Source of the DNA: a virus
Reading direction: 5' to 3' (one strand)
IMG/VR virus record: IMGVR_UViG_3300024306_000745
Span: 1 to 28,555 of that record
DNA: 28,555 nucleotides
The position numbers and the translations under genes were made by a program. Positions 711 through 17,375 of this stretch are shown here, one piece after another (position 1 is the stretch's first letter; each line of letters opens with the position of its first letter). The notes under the pieces are model-generated. The model was not told where the DNA came from and did not search any database. It saw only the letters and a list, made by a program, of their open reading frames with translations.

Positions 711-1889
711 TTATAGTTGCGATTTTAGCCAATCAATAACTTCAGACTGAGTGCCATTAAACTGCGGAAGTCTCATGCTCAGGGTTGCATACCGCTTGAT
801 GCGTCTTTTTACACCGTCTGTGAGCACCCCACCGCGCAACGACAAACGGTGCTTAATCGTTCCCTCGTCTTCGTTTATGATGGCCGTAAAGCACCTTATG
901 CCCTCCTGCGCCATGGTCTTAACGAATCTGGTTGCCTGCGTGTTTATTACGACCAGGCTCTTATCTTTTGCCGCTGATGCTGCTTGTAGTGCCTTATCGA
1001 ATCCAAGGATGTCTACGTCTATGATGTTGAAGTTGTTTAGCTGTTTAGATGCCCAGGTCTTGCCGGCACCAGAAGGTCCACACAAAACGTATATCAACGG
1101 GTTCTTGCTGGCCCACGCAACAAGATCTGTCGAGTAGTCGACTTCATTGCCCCAGAGCTCTAGGTATCTTAGAGCCTTGTTGTTGAAGAAATTACGCTTC
1201 CTGTTGTTGCTAGCCAAGTGTTTCTGTTGATTGTGCCAGTAGTTCCCATGCACATCCAGATATGTATCTATCTCTGGGATGTAGATATCTACCGTATAAA
1301 AGTCTTTCACCACTTGACCATGAGCAAGTGGATAGGTTTGCTTGATCTTGTTTAAGACTTCGATCTCTAACTTAGATGTCTTTTCCGATTGCATCTTAGC
1401 TAAAGCTTTAGCGTGAGCAATTTTAAACTTATCAGTTTGTCTTGCTGCATCAAGTATAGATGGAGAGATCTTATCGTGCGCCTTTTGTTTTTCCGTTCTA
1501 TTCTCTGGCTGCGCATACCAGTTCATTGAACACTTAACAGAGCAAAATTTATTATTTCCAATTAATTGCGATTCATACTTTTCAAAAGCCGTTTCACAAT
1601 TCAAGCACGCCACATCAACCAAACCGCCCTTATAGTTAGGATTATTCTGTCCTGATAGGGTTTTGACGTAGCATTTCTTGTGGAACCTGGGTGGTTCAGC
1701 TTCGCCTTTGGGGATTGGGACTTTTTCGCCGCACACTTCGCAGTTGTTTAGTGGGCGACCGTTATGGGCAAGAACGTCGGCTTTGTATTGCTCTTTTGTG
1801 TAGTCGGCGGAGCAATGTGTCTTCCAATGTCGGCTCATGAGCCCGTTGAGCTGTTTGGTTTGTAGGTCGCAGAGATGACATTTGTACAT
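711..1889 (-). CDS. homing-type nuclease (zinc fingers + Vsr-like domain) fused to a P-loop kinase domain
   Basis: 392 aa from the ATG at 1889, which has AGAGGG 7 nt upstream; an in-frame ATG at 1910 sits in a hairpin loop without a site. The N-terminus has Cys/His pairs (C4-x2-C7 with H21, H25; C50-x2-C53; C95-x2-C98 with C116-x3-C120) and the SGQNNPNYKGG element typical of DNA-binding parts of homing endonucleases. Residues 172-250 look like a Vsr/PD-(D/E)XK nuclease: E175/E177, D201 in VDIYI, then LDVHGNYWH with D212, H214 and H219. Residues 266-392 start with a Walker A, GPSGAGKT (271-278), followed by IIDVD, and resemble small nucleotide or polynucleotide kinases. It lies between the sheath and the last gene, the usual setting of a free-standing homing gene. 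The kinase fusion is unusual. Confidence 0.75.
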   Translation of the reverse strand: MYKCHLCDLQTKQLNGLMSRHWKTHCSADYTKEQYKADVLAHNGRPLNNCEVCGEKVPIPKGEAEPPRFHKKCYVKTLSGQNNPNYKGGLVDVACLNCETAFEKYESQLIGNNKFCSVKCSMNWYAQPENRTEKQKAHDKISPSILDAARQTDKFKIAHAKALAKMQSEKTSKLEIEVLNKIKQTYPLAHGQVVKDFYTVDIYIPEIDTYLDVHGNYWHNQQKHLASNNRKRNFFNNKALRYLELWGNEVDYSTDLVAWASKNPLIYVLCGPSGAGKTWASKQLNNFNIIDVDILGFDKALQAASAAKDKSLVVINTQATRFVKTMAQEGIRCFTAIINEDEGTIKHRLSLRGGVLTDGVKRRIKRYATLSMRLPQFNGTQSEVIDWLKSQL

Positions 1890-1892
1890 AGA

Positions 1893-1930
1893 AAAACCCT
1901 CTACCAACATTGTACTTGGTAGAGGGTTTT
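1893..1930 (-). terminator. perfect 15-bp hairpin between sheath and endonuclease genes, overlapping the latter's RBS
   Basis: Arms at 1893-1907 and 1916-1930 pair perfectly (15 bp) around an 8-nt loop. The arms begin and end in A4/T4, so it can act as an intrinsic terminator for the sheath transcript. On the minus strand the 3' arm contains GGTAGAGGG, the ribosome site of the endonuclease gene starting at 1889, so a read-through transcript would hide that site. Confidence 0.8.
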
Positions 1931-1950
1931 GATTTAATTACTTGATTTGA

Positions 1951-4125
1951 TTAAGCTGTTTGGCTAGCGCGTTGCAAAGTAATGTCGGCCAGGACGAAAT
2001 CGATCCCTTCTACAAGCTTGATCGTAACCGAGATGTAGATCGTGTTGCCTTCGATTCGAACGCTCAAGGACTTGAAGCCCTGCGGAGCATCTGCCGTACT
2101 GACCGTGATTCCTTGAGACAAGAACGTGGCCAGAACAGACTCAGCAGTAGATTGGACTTCAGATGCTCGCAGTGTATTTTTAACGCCGATGTAACGAAGT
2201 TCCATGGTGTTGCGGAAGTTGTAAGCGACAACGTCAGCAGCGTACATGACGTTTGCACGGTTGTATACCCAGTTATCATCGACGCCGTAGGTCGTGTTGT
2301 CTACTACAACGCGGTACCCACCGGTTCGCGGAGCTTCCAAGAAAGTGATGCCAGACTGGATTGCGTCATCATACTGCGTATCTGGATCGAAGTCAACCAC
2401 GATATCGGCTTCAGGAGTGTTCATTGGTTGTGCGGTTTGGCGGATACCAGAGCAGTTCATGAACTTGAAGGTTAAAGGAAGACCGATCGGCGATCCGCCG
2501 CGCGAGCCAGCAAGTAAGCATGCCAATGCCCATGGCTGAAACCATTTGATGGCGCCTTGTGCGTTGATTTGACGGATATCTTGGATAACCATCTGAACGC
2601 GAGCATCGGCCATATTGCCTGCTTTATCTTTACAGCTGCTGTACGAAGCTTTAGCAGACAGATATCCTTGGCGTTCACTTTTCTTCTTGGTGGTTTTCAT
2701 CAAGCTGAGATGTGTCTTAACTGCTTGATGGATACCGTCAATCGTGTAGGTGGAGGAAGGATCGGTGAGGTTGTCAGCGATGTCGGCGGTTGCGTTTCTA
2801 GAAAATAGTGGAACCACAGAGTTAACGTGGAACTTCTCAAATTTAGAGAGAGCACTTACGATATCAGATGTCAGAGTGCCACCCTTTGCGCCACCCGCCA
2901 AAAGCGTTTCGCTTAGAGCGGCAGGAAGACCCTTTGTTGCCGGGGCGACAAGGCCGGCGATATTGGACTGCTCAAAAAGATCTTGAACCTCCATAGCGTC
3001 TTTTTTAAGGCGCGCAGCTTTCACACCTGTTGCACCAAAGGCACCAACGCTCGACACGAGATCAAGTGCATCAAGACCAAGTTGGTTGTAAACTGGACTA
3101 CTAACAGCAGCACTCCAGCCTGGTTGGAGGGAGATGGACTCTGCAAGCTGCTTAATCGTAACAAATGCAGCTTTATCGAATTCAATAGTGCCAGTAGAGG
3201 CAGTAAGAGTAACTTTACTATCGCTAACAGAAACAGAGGCAGATGTTGCGCCGCCGGTGTTATCGCGACCAATCTCAAGGACAACATGTCCGCCGACGGT
3301 GTCTTCTTCAACGAGAAGATCTCGTTTTTGATTCAACGAAATCGTGCAACTAGGTTCAGCTGCTGAAACAGACACGCCGGCAATAAGACCAAGCTTGGCG
3401 AGATCGCCAGGAGTTGAGTCGACGAGTTCAAAAGAACGTCCCCATCCTTCTTGGTATTGAGAAGGGGCGGCATCCATCTCAAGCTTAACAGATGTTCCAG
3501 ATGCAGAAGCGGTTAAACCAGATGGAAGCAGACCATTTAATTCAGTAACAAGTTCTGCCAAATCATCGTGATCGGTGGAAGTAGAGCTCAATGTAACTAC
3601 GGCAGCTGTCCCACCGTTCATTCTAACGGAAAAGGAGGCACCATTTAACGCCACACTATATCCCGGCGGCGTGGTTCCCGTAACTGCTGGAGCGGTTTCT
3701 GCAGTTGCAAGGACCTTAACGGAGATCTGATTTCCACCGACGCCCCACTCTTTTGCTCGAACAGTTCCATAAGAACCAGCAAGAGCAAGACTTGCACGCA
3801 CTGAGGCGTTGGTCTTATAAACCCACACAGTTTGGGCGCCGCTTGGGATTGCGCCATCAGATGCAGGAGAAAACAAGAAGTTAAGAGCGTCGACAATTGG
3901 GCCTGATCGATATTTACCACGAGCTTCGATCAAACGATCAGCTGTAAAGAAGTTGTCGGCAATGTTGGTTTCGGATGCACCCGGTTCGCCTGCGTCAGCT
4001 TCGCCAAAGATGGCTATGAGACCAGCTGGACCCAGAGGGACGTTGCCCGATAAATCGATCGTGGTTTTCGAATAAGCACCCGGCTTGTACAGTGTGGCAC
4101 CGTTGAATGATACGTTGATTGCCAT
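1951..4125 (-). CDS. contractile tail sheath protein, 724 aa
   Basis: The protein forms the contractile sheath around the tail tube. The N-terminus (YKPGAYSKTTIDLSG, then PAGLIAIFGEADAGEPG) and the C-terminus (VVAYNFRNTMELRYIGVKN, then QGFKSLSVRI and IYISVTIKLVEGIDFV) match the conserved halves of phage sheath proteins. The C-terminal domain holds the handshake strands that link neighbouring subunits. The variable Ala/Ser/Thr-rich middle (about residues 120-370) is large, so 724 aa is long for the family and suggests inserted surface domains. The start at 4125 has AAGGAG 6 nt upstream. It is followed by a hairpin and preceded by what looks like a broken gene. Virion assembly in the host cytoplasm. 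Confidence 0.93.
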   Translation of the reverse strand: MAINVSFNGATLYKPGAYSKTTIDLSGNVPLGPAGLIAIFGEADAGEPGASETNIADNFFTADRLIEARGKYRSGPIVDALNFLFSPASDGAIPSGAQTVWVYKTNASVRASLALAGSYGTVRAKEWGVGGNQISVKVLATAETAPAVTGTTPPGYSVALNGASFSVRMNGGTAAVVTLSSTSTDHDDLAELVTELNGLLPSGLTASASGTSVKLEMDAAPSQYQEGWGRSFELVDSTPGDLAKLGLIAGVSVSAAEPSCTISLNQKRDLLVEEDTVGGHVVLEIGRDNTGGATSASVSVSDSKVTLTASTGTIEFDKAAFVTIKQLAESISLQPGWSAAVSSPVYNQLGLDALDLVSSVGAFGATGVKAARLKKDAMEVQDLFEQSNIAGLVAPATKGLPAALSETLLAGGAKGGTLTSDIVSALSKFEKFHVNSVVPLFSRNATADIADNLTDPSSTYTIDGIHQAVKTHLSLMKTTKKKSERQGYLSAKASYSSCKDKAGNMADARVQMVIQDIRQINAQGAIKWFQPWALACLLAGSRGGSPIGLPLTFKFMNCSGIRQTAQPMNTPEADIVVDFDPDTQYDDAIQSGITFLEAPRTGGYRVVVDNTTYGVDDNWVYNRANVMYAADVVAYNFRNTMELRYIGVKNTLRASEVQSTAESVLATFLSQGITVSTADAPQGFKSLSVRIEGNTIYISVTIKLVEGIDFVLADITLQRASQTA

Positions 4126-11064: not shown

Positions 11065-11568
11065 ATGAGCAAGCTAAACCAACATTCCGCAGTCGTCCAA
11101 ATCACCAAAGCCCACTTCGGCGAGCGCTTCGTCCCAGGCTCCGACATTAAAGAGTACGCGACCAAAGCCGACAAGCAAGCGATCGCCGCCAAGATTGCTG
11201 AGCTGATGCTCGAAGGTGCGGTCGAGCTGAGCGACTCTGCCAAGGCTAAGTACGGTGAGTCCGCCGAAGTCCTGACGAGCAAGTACGTGGTCGGCATGGT
11301 GACGAACTGGTTCAACAAATCTAAGGAGCTTAACGGCGGCGTCAAGTACGAGACCAAGAACCCCGGCTCACGAGCTGGAAGCGGTGACCCGCAGATCAAA
11401 GAGATGCGCACGCTCCGCAAGCACCTCGAATCGCTCGGCAACGTCGACGGTGTAGCTCGGGTCGACGAAGCCATCGCCCAGCGCCTCGCTGAGATCGGCG
11501 CCACCAAGACCTCGACCGTCGAGATCAACGCCGACAACCTCCCCGAATATCTCCGCGACCTAGCCTAA
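11065..11568 (+). CDS. conserved phage protein, 167 aa; paralogue of 15048-15566
   Basis: GGGGG lies 7 nt before the ATG. The core YVVGMVTNWFNKSKELNGG, then YETKNPGSRAGS and KEMRTLRKHLESLG (about 78-135), is about two-thirds identical to the 15048 product, and both end in DNLPEYLRDLA-like motifs. The family occurs in large phages; I know no function. The N-terminus is helical and soluble, without membrane segments. Codons are rich in C-ending triplets (CTC, GTC, ATC), unlike most neighbours, which suggests high expression. It is followed by an ANGGAN hairpin and a cassette box. Confidence 0.8.
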   Translation: MSKLNQHSAVVQITKAHFGERFVPGSDIKEYATKADKQAIAAKIAELMLEGAVELSDSAKAKYGESAEVLTSKYVVGMVTNWFNKSKELNGGVKYETKNPGSRAGSGDPQIKEMRTLRKHLESLGNVDGVARVDEAIAQRLAEIGATKTSTVEINADNLPEYLRDLA

Positions 11569-11578
11569 TCCTCCCGCC

Positions 11579-11596
11579 GAGCTCACGGATGAGCTC
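11579..11596 (+). promoter_or_regulatory. ANGGAN hexaloop hairpin 1 (ACGGAU loop)
   Basis: GAGCTC-ACGGAT-GAGCTC, 10 nt after the stop of the 167-aa gene: six base pairs with a C-G closing pair and an ACGGAU hexaloop, the geometry CsrA/RsmA proteins bind. No T-run follows. Confidence 0.55.
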
Positions 11597-11599
11597 CTC

Positions 11600-11640
11600 G
11601 GTGCACTTCCGAAGTGCACCGACACTGCTACGCCCAGGGA
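11600..11640 (+). repeat. GTGCAC dyad + CGACACTGCTACGCCC repeat, copy A
   Basis: GGTGCACTT-C-GAAGTGCACC-type dyad (10-nt arms around one C) followed by GACACTGCTACGCCCAGGGA. Its 3' 27 nt (11609-11635) are identical to copy C (14872-14898) and similar to copy B (12961-12987). All copies lie between a stop codon and a TCCGAANCTA box. Confidence 0.65.
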
Positions 11641-11643
11641 ACT

Positions 11644-11653
11644 TCCGAAACTA
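11644..11653 (+). promoter_or_regulatory. TCCGAANCTA box (TCCGAAACTA) after repeat A
   Basis: Followed by TAAATTTATA and a long AT-rich leader; the next ATG is at 11746, an unusually long spacing of 92 nt. Confidence 0.55.
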
Positions 11654-11735
11654 TAAATTTATATAATTAATTAATAATAAAAATTAATTAATTAAAATTA
11701 ATAAAAATCCAAAACTAATAATTATCAACCAACAA
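11652..11735. other. AT-rich tract, about 84 bp
   Basis: Almost only A and T, with repeated TTAATTAA units, between box 11644 and the 86-aa gene. It could ease DNA melting (promoter or origin) or form an unstructured leader. No repeats typical of an initiator-binding origin are seen. Confidence 0.5.
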
Positions 11736-11745
11736 GGAGTTCACC

Positions 11746-12006
11746 ATGAAAGTCTTGAAGGACCAAATCAAAGAGTTCCTTGACAGCCATGACTCTGCAC
11801 CTGGTGCCCATGTGTTTGTGCTGAGTGAGATCAAGGAGGTGAGTGATGCTGAGATCTCCCAAATCTATGAGGAGTCTGAGGGTGTGAATGATACTGCAAG
11901 GAACCAAATAATTGACAACATGAGCTCACTGGAACTGATGAAGCTGTCTGCCCACATCCTTGAGATTGCCAATGAGAAGCTGGCTGATCTGGAAGCATCA
12001 GCCTAA
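11746..12006 (+). CDS. small acidic protein in the CpG desert, 86 aa
   Basis: ATG with AAGGAG 7 nt upstream. The product is acidic and helical (IKEFLDSHD, EIKEVSDAEISQIYEESEG, LELMKLSAHILEIANEKLADLE) without Cys or a membrane segment. The gene has no CpG, so Arg is coded AGG and no NCG or CGN codon occurs; this differs sharply from the CpG-rich genes on both sides. Function unknown; a small cytoplasmic interactor is possible. Confidence 0.75.
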   Translation: MKVLKDQIKEFLDSHDSAPGAHVFVLSEIKEVSDAEISQIYEESEGVNDTARNQIIDNMSSLELMKLSAHILEIANEKLADLEASA

Positions 12007-12012
12007 GATAAC

Positions 12013-12032
12013 TGAGCTCATGGATGAGCTCA
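12013..12032 (+). promoter_or_regulatory. ANGGAN hexaloop hairpin 2 (AUGGAU loop)
   Basis: GAGCTC-ATGGAT-GAGCTC, 7 nt after a stop codon. The stem can extend outward by a T-A pair, and the A-T at the loop ends could also pair. Closing pair C-G. A box follows 8-9 nt later. Confidence 0.55.
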
Positions 12033-12040
12033 CCTTCCCT

Positions 12041-12050
12041 TCCAAACCTA
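12041..12050 (+). promoter_or_regulatory. CpG-less box copy (TCCAAACCTA)
   Basis: Followed by GAGACTCATG and then hairpin 12071-12089 and a second box. It may be a duplicated cassette. Confidence 0.45.
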
Positions 12051-12070
12051 GAGACTCATGTCCTCCTTTT

Positions 12071-12089
12071 GGGACTCACAGTGAGTCCC
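12071..12089 (+). other. GGGACTCAC/GTGAGTCCC hairpin
   Basis: Nine-nt complementary arms around a single A, in the same place relative to the next box (6 nt) as the ANGGAN hairpins, but without a GGA loop. Confidence 0.5.
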
Positions 12090-12095
12090 TTCTCT

Positions 12096-12105
12096 TCCAA
12101 ACCTA
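12096..12105 (+). promoter_or_regulatory. CpG-less box copy (TCCAAACCTA) before the 72-aa gene
   Basis: Ends 31 nt before the ATG at 12137. Same as the consensus box except CG to CA. Confidence 0.5.
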
Positions 12106-12136
12106 GAGGTAGTCATCAACAAACCAGGAGGTTGAT

Positions 12137-12355
12137 ATGCAGTTCAAGTCCAAGCATGAGGCAACTATCTCTTTCACTGAGGAATCCTTTGCTAAGCTGC
12201 TTGACAAAGAATGGAGTGAACTTGAGTGTGTAATGGTTGATGGCAGAATCATAGTACTCACCAGGACACAGCTCATCTTCCTCTGGGCCAAGACTAGGGA
12301 CTGGCGCAAGGTTCAGCACTCCAACACTAAGGTCAAAGTAATCAAAGTAGCCTGA
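12137..12355 (+). CDS. small protein, mostly in the CpG desert, 72 aa
   Basis: ATG with AGGAGG 6 nt upstream. Mixed alpha/beta sequence (EATISFTEESFAKLLDKEW, then MVDGRIIVLTRTQLIFLW) with a basic C-terminus (KVQHSNTKVKVIKVA). Only one CpG in the gene. It is preceded by the box at 12096 and followed, 9 nt after the stop, by an ANGGAN hairpin. Function unknown. Confidence 0.75.
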   Translation: MQFKSKHEATISFTEESFAKLLDKEWSELECVMVDGRIIVLTRTQLIFLWAKTRDWRKVQHSNTKVKVIKVA

Positions 12356-12364
12356 TTCTTAACT

Positions 12365-12382
12365 GAGCTCAAGGATGAGCTT
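12365..12382 (+). promoter_or_regulatory. ANGGAN hexaloop hairpin 3 (AAGGAU loop)
   Basis: GAGCTC-AAGGAT-GAGCTT, 9 nt after the stop of the 72-aa gene. The loop with its closing pair reads CAAGGAUG, an exact match to the CARGGAUG core selected in vitro for E. coli CsrA. Confidence 0.6.
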
Positions 12383-12392
12383 GCTCTTTCCT

Positions 12393-12402
12393 CCCGAACA
12401 TA
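12393..12402 (+). promoter_or_regulatory. box copy (CCCGAACATA) before the 78-aa gene
   Basis: Ten nt after hairpin 3 and ending 31 nt before the ATG at 12434. Confidence 0.45.
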
Positions 12403-12708: not shown

Positions 12709-12945
12709 ATGATAACCAAGCAAGAGATCATCAAGATGGCGATGCTACACCACGACTCGATGGCGACCAACGTGTACGACCTTGGCTACTACAGAAACCG
12801 CGTCAAGTTCCTCGACGACTATGTTCCCTCTAAACCCGTGTTCCGCAGCAAGCAGAATGTTCAACCAGGCAAGAAGTTCAAGACCGACAAGGAGCGCGTT
12901 GCTGATATCCAGCGCCAAAACAATAACTACCGAGACAAGAAGTGA
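12709..12945 (+). CDS. small basic protein, unknown, 78 aa
   Basis: ATG with AGGAGG 6 nt upstream, in the same transcription unit as the previous gene (38-nt gap, no hairpin or box). Helical N-terminus, then a strongly basic, probably disordered tail (QPGKKFKTDKERVADIQ, then YRDKK), which could bind nucleic acid. Function unknown. Confidence 0.7.
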   Translation: MITKQEIIKMAMLHHDSMATNVYDLGYYRNRVKFLDDYVPSKPVFRSKQNVQPGKKFKTDKERVADIQRQNNNYRDKK

Positions 12946-14870: not shown

Positions 14871-14900
14871 TCCGAAGTGCACCGACACTGCTACGCCCCT
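14871..14900 (+). repeat. CGACACTGCTACGCCC repeat, copy C
   Basis: Identical over 27 nt to the 3' part of copy A but lacking the 5' dyad arm. It begins directly after the terminator T-run, so it belongs to the next unit's control region. Confidence 0.65.
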
Positions 14901-15047: not shown

Positions 15048-15566
15048 ATGGCTATGAAGCAACGTGAAGCAGTCTACTTGTCCACCACCGAAGTCCTCGC
15101 CCACAAAGGCATCGAGTTCATGCCCAGCGTGACCGACGTCCGCGACGTGGTGAACACCGAGATCCGCAAGGAGATCGCTGACCGAGTCGTCAACCTCTTC
15201 AAGTCTGGCGGAGTCGAGTTCAAAGGTACCGACGCGAACCAAGCTAAGCTGAGCGACGAGAAGCTCCTCCGCAACTACGTCACCGGTCTCATCACCAACT
15301 GGTTCAACAAGGACCCGCAGCTCAACGGCGGCTCCAAGTACCAAGCTAAGAACCCTGGTTCCCGCGCTGGCTCTTCCGATGCGCAGCTGAAAGAGATGCG
15401 CCTGCTCAAGAAGCACCTCGAGACCATTGGCAACACCGAAGGCATCGCGCGCGTCGAAGAAGCTATCCAGGCTCGCATCGCAGAGCTAAGAACCGAAAAA
15501 GCGCCCACTCTACCCGAAGTGTCCACCGACAACCTCCCTGATTTCTTGAAGGACCTTGCTGTCTAA
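15048..15566 (+). CDS. conserved phage protein, 172 aa; paralogue of 11065-11568
   Basis: AAGGAG lies 8 nt before the ATG. Core YVTGLITNWFNKDPQLNGG, YQAKNPGSRAGS and KEMRLLKKHLETIG; C-terminus DNLPDFLKDLAV. About two-thirds identical to the 11065 product over the central 70 residues. Codon choice is again rich in C-ending codons, and it has its own terminator, repeat, two boxes and a strong ribosome site, all pointing to high, separately controlled expression. Function unknown; soluble, helical. Confidence 0.8.
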   Translation: MAMKQREAVYLSTTEVLAHKGIEFMPSVTDVRDVVNTEIRKEIADRVVNLFKSGGVEFKGTDANQAKLSDEKLLRNYVTGLITNWFNKDPQLNGGSKYQAKNPGSRAGSSDAQLKEMRLLKKHLETIGNTEGIARVEEAIQARIAELRTEKAPTLPEVSTDNLPDFLKDLAV

Positions 15567-15574
15567 CCCTCCTA

Positions 15575-15610
15575 GGGAGGGAGACCACAACTCTCCCTCC
15601 CCTTTCTTCT
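15575..15610 (+). terminator. intrinsic terminator after the 172-aa gene
   Basis: GGGAGGGAGA (15575-15584) pairs perfectly with TCTCCCTCCC (15592-15601) around CCACAAC, then CTTTCTTCT. The 5' arm can instead pair with CCCTCC just upstream, an alternative fold. Confidence 0.8.
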
Positions 15611-15625
15611 AAAGATAAGGACTCC

Positions 15626-15799
15626 GTGAAACCGCACCTTTACGATAAAGAACTAGTCGGCCACACCAGAGAGCAGAAAGTCTACCTCCTAAGGCCAATA
15701 CTAGAAGCCAAGCTGTTCCTCTTCATGCTCCACAAACTGAAGGTGGAGCGAAGGTCCGCTTGGTCCCACCTAGACTATGAAGACCGCAAGGGGTTCTAG
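15626..15799 (+). CDS. micro-family A protein, 57 aa
   Basis: GTG start after the terminator; the ribosome site is weak (AAGGA about 6 nt upstream). The core AKLFLFMLHKLKVERRSAW (about 29-47) is the clearest example of the shared pattern: a hydrophobic helix, Leu-x-x-Leu-Lys-Val, then a charged/aromatic turn. First of four genes coupled by TAGATG or TGATG junctions. Function unknown. Confidence 0.65.
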   Translation: MKPHLYDKELVGHTREQKVYLLRPILEAKLFLFMLHKLKVERRSAWSHLDYEDRKGF

Positions 15800-15955
15800 A
15801 TGAACCTATACGACCACGAATACAGCAAGATCCACAACGTCCACCTAGCCGCCCCAGTAGAGGAAGCTAAGAGGTTCCTCATCACCCTATATTCCCTTAG
15901 GCTAGAGAAGAGTAGGACCTACTGGGCTAAGATCGTAGGGTTCGGGAGGAAGTGA
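15800..15955 (+). CDS. micro-family A protein, 51 aa
   Basis: ATG directly after the previous TAG, GGGG-type site about 5 nt upstream. Starts NLYDHEYSK, as the previous one has HLYDKEL, and has the core AKRFLITLYSLRLEKSRTYW. Clear sibling of the 57-aa protein. Function unknown. Confidence 0.65.
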   Translation: MNLYDHEYSKIHNVHLAAPVEEAKRFLITLYSLRLEKSRTYWAKIVGFGRK

Positions 15956-16059
15956 TGGCTACCTACGATGAAGAAGTGTTTAAGCTGAGGTTCTTCTTGT
16001 ATCTCCTCGAGAAGCTGAAGGTTTCCAAGGAAAAGCCCTACTCCCAGGAAGTGAGCTAG
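15955..16059 (+). CDS. micro-family A protein, 34 aa
   Basis: TGATG overlap with the previous gene, GGGAGGAAG upstream. A reduced sibling: ATYDEEVFKLRFFLYLLEKLKVSKEKPY in two runs (start like YDHEY, core FFLYLLEKLKV). Function unknown. Confidence 0.6.
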   Translation: MATYDEEVFKLRFFLYLLEKLKVSKEKPYSQEVS

Positions 16060-16203
16060 ATGGAGAACCTCCCCGTACCTAGAGAAGAGATAGACCGAAC
16101 CGATATGCTTAAGAAAATGTCGCGGGAGATAAGCTATCTGGCCCACGTGAAGATGATCTTCTTTACGCTGTCTCGCCTAGGTTTGGACTCAGTGAGGTAC
16201 TGA
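16060..16203 (+). CDS. micro-family A protein, 47 aa
   Basis: ATG directly after TAG; CAGGAAG is about 8 nt upstream. The C-terminal core HVKMIFFTLSRLGLDSVRY matches the family helix; the N-terminal half (REEIDRTDMLKKMSREISY) is charged. Last of the four coupled genes. Function unknown. Confidence 0.6.
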   Translation: MENLPVPREEIDRTDMLKKMSREISYLAHVKMIFFTLSRLGLDSVRY

Positions 16204-16291
16204 GTGTTTCACTTAGTGGAAGTCGTGTGTCGGTGGGCGTCGCTACACCCCCTCCCCTTTCCACTCGAAACTACCTCCCCCTACTGATGGA

Positions 16292-16307
16292 ATAGGTTTA
16301 AACCTAT
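16292..16307. repeat. 16-bp perfect palindrome ATAGGTTTAAACCTAT
   Basis: Perfect dyad with the central PmeI-type GTTTAAAC, in a noncoding stretch. Possible binding site of a dimeric regulator. Confidence 0.5.
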
Positions 16308-16335
16308 CGCTTACTGAAACACCAAGAGAGAAGCA

Positions 16336-16413
16336 ATGGAATGCCCCTTTCCACTACACAGCCATCGGCACCGTTTGAACCTAGATGAACTTTCTTCCCC
16401 TAAGATAGGGTGA
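16336..16413 (+). CDS. doubtful micro-ORF, 25 aa
   Basis: ATG with AGAGAG upstream; His-rich (PLHSHRHRLNLDELS). It contains one of the TTTCCACT repeats, so it may be chance. Confidence 0.25.
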   Translation: MECPFPLHSHRHRLNLDELSSPKIG

Positions 16414-16496
16414 ATAGCTTGGCTACTTTTCCACTCGATACCATATCTTCCTCCTAGTAGATAGTGTGCCTAAACCCTCTGAGGGAGAAAAGTGAT

Positions 16497-16679
16497 ATGC
16501 CCAGATGCCTGAACGAAAGATGCCCTGTCTCTATATTGGAACTTGAAAGTTCTTTTGCCCACGTATCTCCCCAGTTTGGGAGCGTGAGGTGTTTGTGCTG
16601 TATCTCTGATAAGGAGACTTGGCGAGCTGCCCTTGAGGCTACGCTGGCCTATCGCTACCGCTTTCTTCTTGACATATAG
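16497..16679 (+). CDS. Cys-rich small protein, 60 aa
   Basis: ATG with GAGGGAG about 10 nt upstream. Cys at 4, 9, 18-residue spacing later RCLCC (C43-x-C45-C46 by rough count) could bind zinc in a knuckle; the C-terminus is helical (WRAALEATLAYRYRFLL). It vaguely recalls small phage Com-type zinc proteins, but the spacing is not right for a firm call. Function unknown. Confidence 0.5.
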   Translation: MPRCLNERCPVSILELESSFAHVSPQFGSVRCLCCISDKETWRAALEATLAYRYRFLLDI

Positions 16680-16758
16680 GATATTGTTGGGTTTAGTCTT
16701 ATCCCGATCCAAATAAAAGCCATGGGAATACTTTCCAGGTCAAACGACGAGGATGTCT

Positions 16759-16995
16759 ATGAACTATCAACTCCAGATGCTTGAGCTTATTAAAGCAATT
16801 ACCCTTCTTTGCCAGACTGAGCTTGGTGCACTCTCCTCAGGTAAAGCTCTTGAAGAGAGAAAGCTGTCGTGTATGTCTCGCTACATAACTTGCACCTGTT
16901 CGACTTCACCTTCCGGTAGTTTGTCTTGTGATCCCAGTATGTTTGAGAGGTTGGCTGCTTGTGTCGTGGAAAGACCTTCGGTGAAAGGTAGGTGA
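16759..16995 (+). CDS. small protein, odd C-terminus, 78 aa
   Basis: The ATG at 16759 has GAGG 6 nt upstream (another in-frame ATG lies at 16753). The N-terminus (QLQMLELIKAITLLCQTELG) fits the helix pattern of micro-family A. The rest is Ser/Cys-rich (CMSRYITCTCSTSPSGSLSC) and looks unlike a natural fold, so part of the frame may be chance, though I found no better frame by shifting. Overlaps the next GTG by 4 nt. Confidence 0.45.
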   Translation: MNYQLQMLELIKAITLLCQTELGALSSGKALEERKLSCMSRYITCTCSTSPSGSLSCDPSMFERLAACVVERPSVKGR

Positions 16996-17120
16996 AGTCC
17001 GAGATGGATACCGCTTTATCCAGTAGGGAAAGAGAGCTCTTAGTTAAGATGACTGGTCTTTTATGGAAGATCAAGGTGGTTGATGCGGACGCTTTCTTTG
17101 ACGCGATCGTTTCTCGCTAG
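16992..17120 (+). CDS. micro-family A protein, 42 aa
   Basis: GTG in a GTGA overlap with the previous stop; an internal ATG at 17004 is an alternative start. Core LLVKMTGLLWKIKVVDADAFF matches the family pattern (in two parts: LLVKMTGLLWKIKV and VDADAFF). Function unknown. Confidence 0.55.
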   Translation: MKSEMDTALSSRERELLVKMTGLLWKIKVVDADAFFDAIVSR

Positions 17121-17156
17121 TTAGGTTTAACCATTTAGTCATGGTGGTGTGGTTTT

Positions 17157-17375
17157 ATGCCGCTGATACTTACGCTTTATTTTGCCGCTTCTACTCCGGG
17201 TTGCCATAGGGTTCCGGTGATGTACTTCAAGGGCACGTTCTACCAGAACTACGACGTTACATTTCTCAGGAAGAACGAGAAGGAATGCGCGGAAGCTTAT
17301 CCCAAATCACCTTGCGTCAACTACATGGTCAAGATCGCCCACCTCACCTACCGCGTTTCCTGCGGCGGTAAGTAG
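17157..17375 (+). CDS. small exported Cys protein, 72 aa
   Basis: Hydrophobic N-terminus (MPLILTLYFAAST) then PGC, like a signal with a poor lipobox. The C-terminal part has a Cys, then SPC, then LTYRVSCGGK, the same ending pattern as 26694-26960 (LSYQVTCKREK). This suggests a small periplasmic or secreted disulfide protein. The ribosome site is weak (GGTGGT). Function unknown. Confidence 0.55.
   Translation: MPLILTLYFAASTPGCHRVPVMYFKGTFYQNYDVTFLRKNEKECAEAYPKSPCVNYMVKIAHLTYRVSCGGK

Follow-up and report, generated by a model that had tools for sequence, protein, structure and literature searches.

Sharp-edged CG-free cassettes recur at promoter-like elements in a phage family

How does a phage genome full of CG come to carry several hundred base pairs without a single one? 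This question is raised by the window analysed here, a stretch of 28,555 bp that represents one entire IMG/VR record, itself a fragment. Over the whole window, 1513 CG are found, i.e. one per 19 bp, with an observed/expected ratio (o/e) of 1.02, and it contains a CG desert that a first-pass annotation had singled out.

The CG-free stretch

The 657-bp desert proposed at 11648–12304 is exact: no CG occurs between those at 11646 and 12305, and both coding and noncoding DNA are covered, as had been claimed. After 12305 the following CG is at 12395, which gives a depleted unit of approximately 11648–12394 with one CG in 747 bp (o/e 0.03 at 42% G+C). The CG richness claimed for the neighbours is equally borne out, with 57 CG in the 504-bp upstream gene and 13 and 17 in the two downstream genes. 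Similar CpG-free stretches, which would have made the desert commonplace, are absent elsewhere in the window, the runner-up being only 215 bp long. In 200 first-order Markov sequences with the dinucleotide composition of the window, the longest CG gap averaged 142 bp and reached 211 bp at most, and in unrelated IMG/VR loci of comparable G+C and CpG (295 kb in all) every gap stayed below 250 bp. The first approximately 70 bp of the desert are AT-rich, and few CG are expected there regardless. Its dinucleotide profile is unusual also for CA/TG, CT/AG and TA.

Two further compositional features were observed nearby. A second, milder CpG-poor block (15501–17000, o/e 0.53–0.61) spans tiny genes with their own signals, and milder CpG-poor stretches likewise occur in the small-gene region of three related contigs (G002, G003 and G004). 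Positions 11331–11607, spanning the latter half of the CG-rich gene that precedes the desert, form 277 bp without TT, which fits the strong preference of that gene for C-ending codons.

Organization of the locus

The depleted unit starts at the box TCCGAAACTATAAATT, right behind the conserved element ACACTGCTACGCCC, and runs up to the next gene's box (table 1). The hairpin upstream of this element is probably a terminator, and hairpins of this kind sit ahead of most copies of the promoter-like element. The two CG-less boxes of the first-pass annotation are in fact three, all reading CCAAA in place of CCGAA, and the hairpin loops of the desert likewise lack the CG present in other copies.

Table 1. 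Parts of the depleted unit and its borders (positions in the window).
Feature	Positions	Strand	Remark	Basis
Hairpin (ggtgcac ttccgaa gtgcacc)	11600..11620	+	closes the CG-rich upstream unit	sequence
Conserved promoter-like element ACACTGCTACGCCC	11622..11635	+	CG retained even in the CG-free region of G006	
Box TCCGAAACTA continuing into TATAAATT	11644..11658	+	final CG (C11646-G11647) is the left edge of the desert	
CG-less box TCCAAAACTA	11708..11717	+	point where G001 homology resumes	
Gene 1, 86 aa, 0 CG	11746..12006	+	no Pfam/PHROG match	
Intergenic hairpin GAGCTCATGGATGAGCTC	12014..12031	+	loop ATGG versus ACGG in CG-rich copies	
CG-less box TCCAAACCTA	12041..12050	+		
Intergenic hairpin gggactcacagtgagtccc	12071..12089	+		sequence
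CG-less box TCCAAACCTA	12096..12105	+	upstream of gene 2	
Gene 2, 72 aa, 1 CG	12137..12355	+	no Pfam/PHROG match	
Intergenic hairpin gagctcaaggatgagct	12365..12381	+	3' of gene 2	sequence
Box CCCGAACATA, CG back	12393..12402	+	right edge of the depleted unit	

Family-wide, a hairpin with ACACTGCTACGCC, then a CCGAAnCTATAAATA-like sequence, is seen ahead of many small genes. Copies of the element occur in the window at 11622–11635 and 14885–14898 and also in the G001–G044 loci, and they keep their CG within CG-free regions.

Affiliation of the phage and relatives of the two genes

Judged from its predicted proteins, the window belongs to a family of contractile-tailed SPO1/Mx1-like myophages, distant from both Mx1 and SPO1. 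Its sheath protein matches the PHROG tail sheath (9.3e-38) and the sheath of Myxococcus phage Mx1 (31% over 95%), its virion protein is related to gp6.4 of Bacillus phage SPO1, and a PhoH-like protein is encoded as well. Searching with both desert genes and the promoter-like element gathered over 30 related contigs; the majority have the gene family of 11065–11568, as well as the sheath and virion proteins where that region is covered. The desert itself sits among many small genes adjoining the structural block. One of these contigs (G030; L388, L389 and L393) carries 23 tRNA genes, among them one called tRNA-Pyl, whose anticodon CTA makes an amber-suppressor tRNA possible.

Outside the family, the two genes appear isolated. 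Besides the negative Pfam and PHROGs searches of table 1 (the latter also negative for the neighbouring genes), no match was found in named phages by blastn with 4 kb around the locus, none by tblastn of both genes against 50,697 phage records of named phages, and profile scans with both genes were negative for all 84,980 prokaryote genomes searched. The box string TTCCAAACCTAGAG was dropped as a query for collection scans, being too unspecific, and so was the hairpin string.

Within the family, homologues range from CG-free to CG-rich. In G001, gene 1 has no CG and gene 2 has two, with an additional gene in between; the CG-free gap there is 416 bp, and gene 1 and the CG-less boxes are common to the window and G001. 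Gene 2 of G002 has three CG. The homologues of G003 and G004 contain 15–16 CG (gene 1) and 21–22 CG (gene 2), a remote gene 1 homologue in G038 (30% identity) has one CG in 309 bp, and further gene 1 homologues in G026, G033 and G008 lie between o/e 0.34 and 1.13. The comparison with homologous genes proposed by the first-pass annotation thus gives a divided answer, CG-free or nearly so in G001 and CG-rich in G003 and G004. Since both kinds exist, the window is not the only bearer of the CG-free state, nor is that state fixed in the gene family, and the idea that gene 1 is CG-free by function is ruled out. In gene 2 of the window, one CG that all four relatives retain has been lost (TCGA to TTGA). 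A rearranged copy was also observed: at L010, approximately 3924–4066, gene 2 ends abruptly after codon 36 and is fused to a hairpin and promoter that otherwise adjoin gene 1 of G004, which on the face of the sequence is a product of recombination at a hairpin-like sequence.

Cassette movement

The cassette, whole or in part, occurs in three phages. The clearest comparison is offered by G002 and G004, whose identity is 99.85% in the 12.8 kb left of the locus and 99.83% in the 4.2 kb right of it; an insert comprising gene 2 and a homologue of the gene at 12709 is present in the former and replaced in the latter. This insert is 89–91% identical to the window, against 67–80% for the other longer matches between the window and G002. 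At the level of sequence comparison, the difference between the two contigs shows a visible cassette swap in which gene 2 moved by recombination. The cassette borders coincide with conserved intergenic signals, on the left 23 bp past the element and on the right at the next box. G001 and the window have different leaders ahead of gene 1 and different genes behind gene 2 (the downstream proteins are 43% identical), which also points to recombination at the repeated signals. Adjoining the swapped cassette, approximately 87 bp are inverted between G002 (53698–53784; L148) and G004 (17071–17157; L153), with 98.9% identity on opposite strands.

A recent transfer had been among the causes first proposed. 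Its mobile part holds, with three phages and one visible swap, but neither a recent nor a foreign origin does, the copies being approximately 15% diverged and following the codon preferences of the family. A recent one-off transfer is unlikely, given this family-like codon use and only two CG differences per 91 substitutions.

Recurrence of CG-free units

The window is not alone in its family. CG-free stretches of 352–659 bp were found in CG-rich or moderately CG-rich genomes, namely in the window, in G001, twice in G008 (571 and 370 bp), in G038 (640 bp) and in G039 (352 bp), and the CG-free genes of G008 and G039 are the sole relatives of each other. In otherwise CG-rich phages, such units usually begin 11–26 bp past the element ACACTGCTACGCC, as all those just listed do. 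Among the 27 gaps tested (at least 300 bp, G+C at least 0.36), five start within 60 bp of the element versus 0.65 expected by random placement (maximum 4 in 2000 placements), a figure to be read with caution since the promoter-like element itself has a CG, which biases gap starts toward it. For the window and G039, the left edges are real, because the upstream unit is CG-rich there.

CG-poor DNA also occurs on a larger scale. A small-gene region of approximately 7.5 kb in G006 stands at o/e ~0.1 although the element keeps its CG; at least one lineage, then, has its whole small-gene region CG-free. Long CG-poor blocks are also present in G007 and G021, and in G030 (176 kb, o/e 1.10) putative tail-fibre genes lie in a CG-poor block of 5 kb. 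Tail-fibre modules are known to be exchanged among phages. A 904-aa protein of this block has no match in named phages. That the small-gene region is always CG-poor was ruled out, the structural genes being poorer in G013 and G017.

Several local observations complete this survey. Within the G030 block (170838–175076; L393), several genes stand at o/e 0.0–0.2. Several kilobases of G007 (1600–4000; L228) are CG-free, with purine/pyrimidine-rich repeats (cctataggaggagg...) and little coding appearance, and small genes on the reverse strand of L281 (approx. 2816–2996) and L188 (approx. 1–157) contain alanine-rich simple repeats. In G038 (L298, 2519–2999), a paralogue of the gene at 11065 has a CG-poor middle and CG-richer ends matching a CG-rich neighbouring paralogue, which looks like gene conversion.

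Loss of CG and persistence of the CG-free state

In two-fold codons of the two desert genes, the ratio of C to T is 0 : 16 before G and 26 : 2 before other bases, versus 299 : 55 and 462 : 57, respectively, in CG-rich C-preferring genes of the family. The codon preference is therefore unchanged, and only C before G turned into T. A model that changes C to T ahead of G, and NCG to NCA, outperforms proportional synonymous use by 3.0 and 1.3 log units. The change from CG to CA or TG proposed by the first-pass annotation is accordingly favoured by a likelihood of approximately 77 : 1 over proportional synonymous redistribution, even though about half of the aligned sites changed otherwise: against G003 and G004, TG or CA stands at ~17 of the 35–36 lost CG sites, the direction there being unpolarized. 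We infer the direction of loss from the CG-rich genome average rather than from an outgroup. Deamination and selection combined with transition-biased mutation are both compatible with this pattern. Deamination of the non-template strand alone is ruled out, as NCG codons are missing too. Searches of 18 and 21 phage records, most of them partial, yielded no cytosine-C5 methyltransferase (PF00145).

The CG-free state outlasts sequence divergence. The cassette copies of the window and G001 are ~15% diverged and both still CG-free; CG-changing sites account for two of the 108 differing sites in the desert versus 344 of 1292 in the flanks. When 91 substitutions were simulated on the desert, ~12.6 new CG arose on average, and two or fewer had a probability of about 0.001 or less. 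This deficit of new CG during divergence indicates that the CG-free state was maintained, either in place or in a CG-free pool sampled separately by the phages of the window and of G001.

Origin of the CG-free cassettes

Cassette sharing, recombination of gene 2 and the recurrence of sharp-edged CG-free cassettes at promoter-like elements are demonstrated by the comparisons above. We favour, with a probability of about 0.5, the explanation that these cassettes come from CG-depleting lineages of the same family and are exchanged between phages. The desert would be an exchangeable cassette made up of box and leader, gene 1, hairpin, boxes and gene 2. Some of the family's lineages would be under a pressure that strips CG, mainly by change to TG or CA; candidates are selection against CG, or methylation of CpG with deamination in particular hosts. 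Cassettes shaped there may then recombine into CG-rich phages through the repeated hairpin and promoter sequences, and would stand out as islands in phages such as that of the window. Repeated import from a diverged pool would explain how the copies of the window and G001 can differ by 15% and both be without CG. Several points speak against import. The cassette lies in the same place behind the same upstream gene in the window and G001, which suggests one inheritance with CG excluded in situ; G003 and G004 carry CG-rich copies of both genes, and the changes at their CG sites are in about half of the cases neither TG nor CA. A CG-free donor with both gene 1 and gene 2 was not found.

The main rival is a tentative possibility, namely ongoing in-place selection against CG on particular transcription units. 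For instance, their mRNA might have to evade a factor from host or phage that cuts or binds CG, by analogy with messages without ACA, which escape MazF, so that coding and untranslated parts are cleared while promoters and neighbouring units are spared. Such selection would agree with CG-free units that begin just past promoter-like elements and take in leaders, spacers and hairpins, with the scarcity of CG differences between the window and G001 relative to their flanks, with the gene 2 CG lost in the window and kept by four relatives, and with CG-free gene 1 homologues in phages as distantly related as those of the window and G038. Yet the CG-rich homologues of G003, G004, G033 and G008 imply that the genes can work without a CG-free message, the two genes just beyond the end of the depleted unit probably share its transcript, CG is also scarce in the putative late tail-fibre block of G030, and no candidate factor was identified. 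Evasion of a CpG-containing restriction target, as first proposed, is unlikely in that form, the rest of the genome being full of CG; a CG-specific pressure on the message or DNA of single units, with CG neutral elsewhere in the genome, is rather doubtful.

Deamination of methylated CpG limited to the desert segment, in the present or an earlier host, is improbable: it would account for the lean to TG and CA on both strands and for the CG-to-CA change of the boxes, but there is no known reason why methylation or deamination should stop at cassette borders, the desert frequently has NCC or NCT where CG-rich copies have NCG codons, CG to AG is also seen in hairpin loops, and the methyltransferase search (in mostly partial records of phages only) was negative. 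Still less probable, and already largely excluded, is that the two genes came from a cell or an unrelated virus with a CG-poor genome. The unusual CA/TG, CT/AG and TA frequencies would fit a foreign source; however, the prokaryote genomes and phage records searched hold no homologue, relatives are confined to this phage family, and codon preferences other than for C before G match those of its CG-rich C-preferring genes. A chance fluctuation or an assembly artefact, for which the shortness of the stretch and its AT-rich start might plead, is hardly credible against the simulated gap maximum and an independent contig, G001, with the same feature.

Comparison with known systems and significance

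Phage compositional mosaics are usually taken as imports from hosts differing in G+C. The desert resembles them as a sharp-edged segment of different composition that recombines between related phages, and it behaves similarly to mosaic tail-fibre modules. Unlike such mosaics, it differs clearly only in CG and its consequences, its codon preferences being family-like, and unrelated cassettes of this region show the trait again. Near-zero CpG with raised TG and CA is also reminiscent of the depletion by methylation and deamination seen in vertebrates and some DNA viruses, whereas here only ~750 bp of a genome otherwise at o/e 1.02 are affected, no C5-methyltransferase was found in the phages searched, and nearly half of the changes are of another kind. 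A parallel with the host-takeover module of SPO1-like phages can be drawn from the structural proteins, distantly related to those of SPO1 and Mx1, and from the numerous small genes beside them, which have individual signals, but the desert genes have no detectable relation to genes of named phages. Searches of the open-licence literature on CpG depletion in phages turned up no account of local CG-free phage cassettes.

What emerges is the loss of a single dinucleotide, cassette by cassette, across a phage family, in a state that lasts through divergence. The cassettes would testify either to genes passing between phages whose CpG regimes differ or to a pressure directed at CG in selected genes. 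If true, such a unit-specific pressure would point to a prokaryotic defence, regulator or nuclease specific for CG that has not been described so far.
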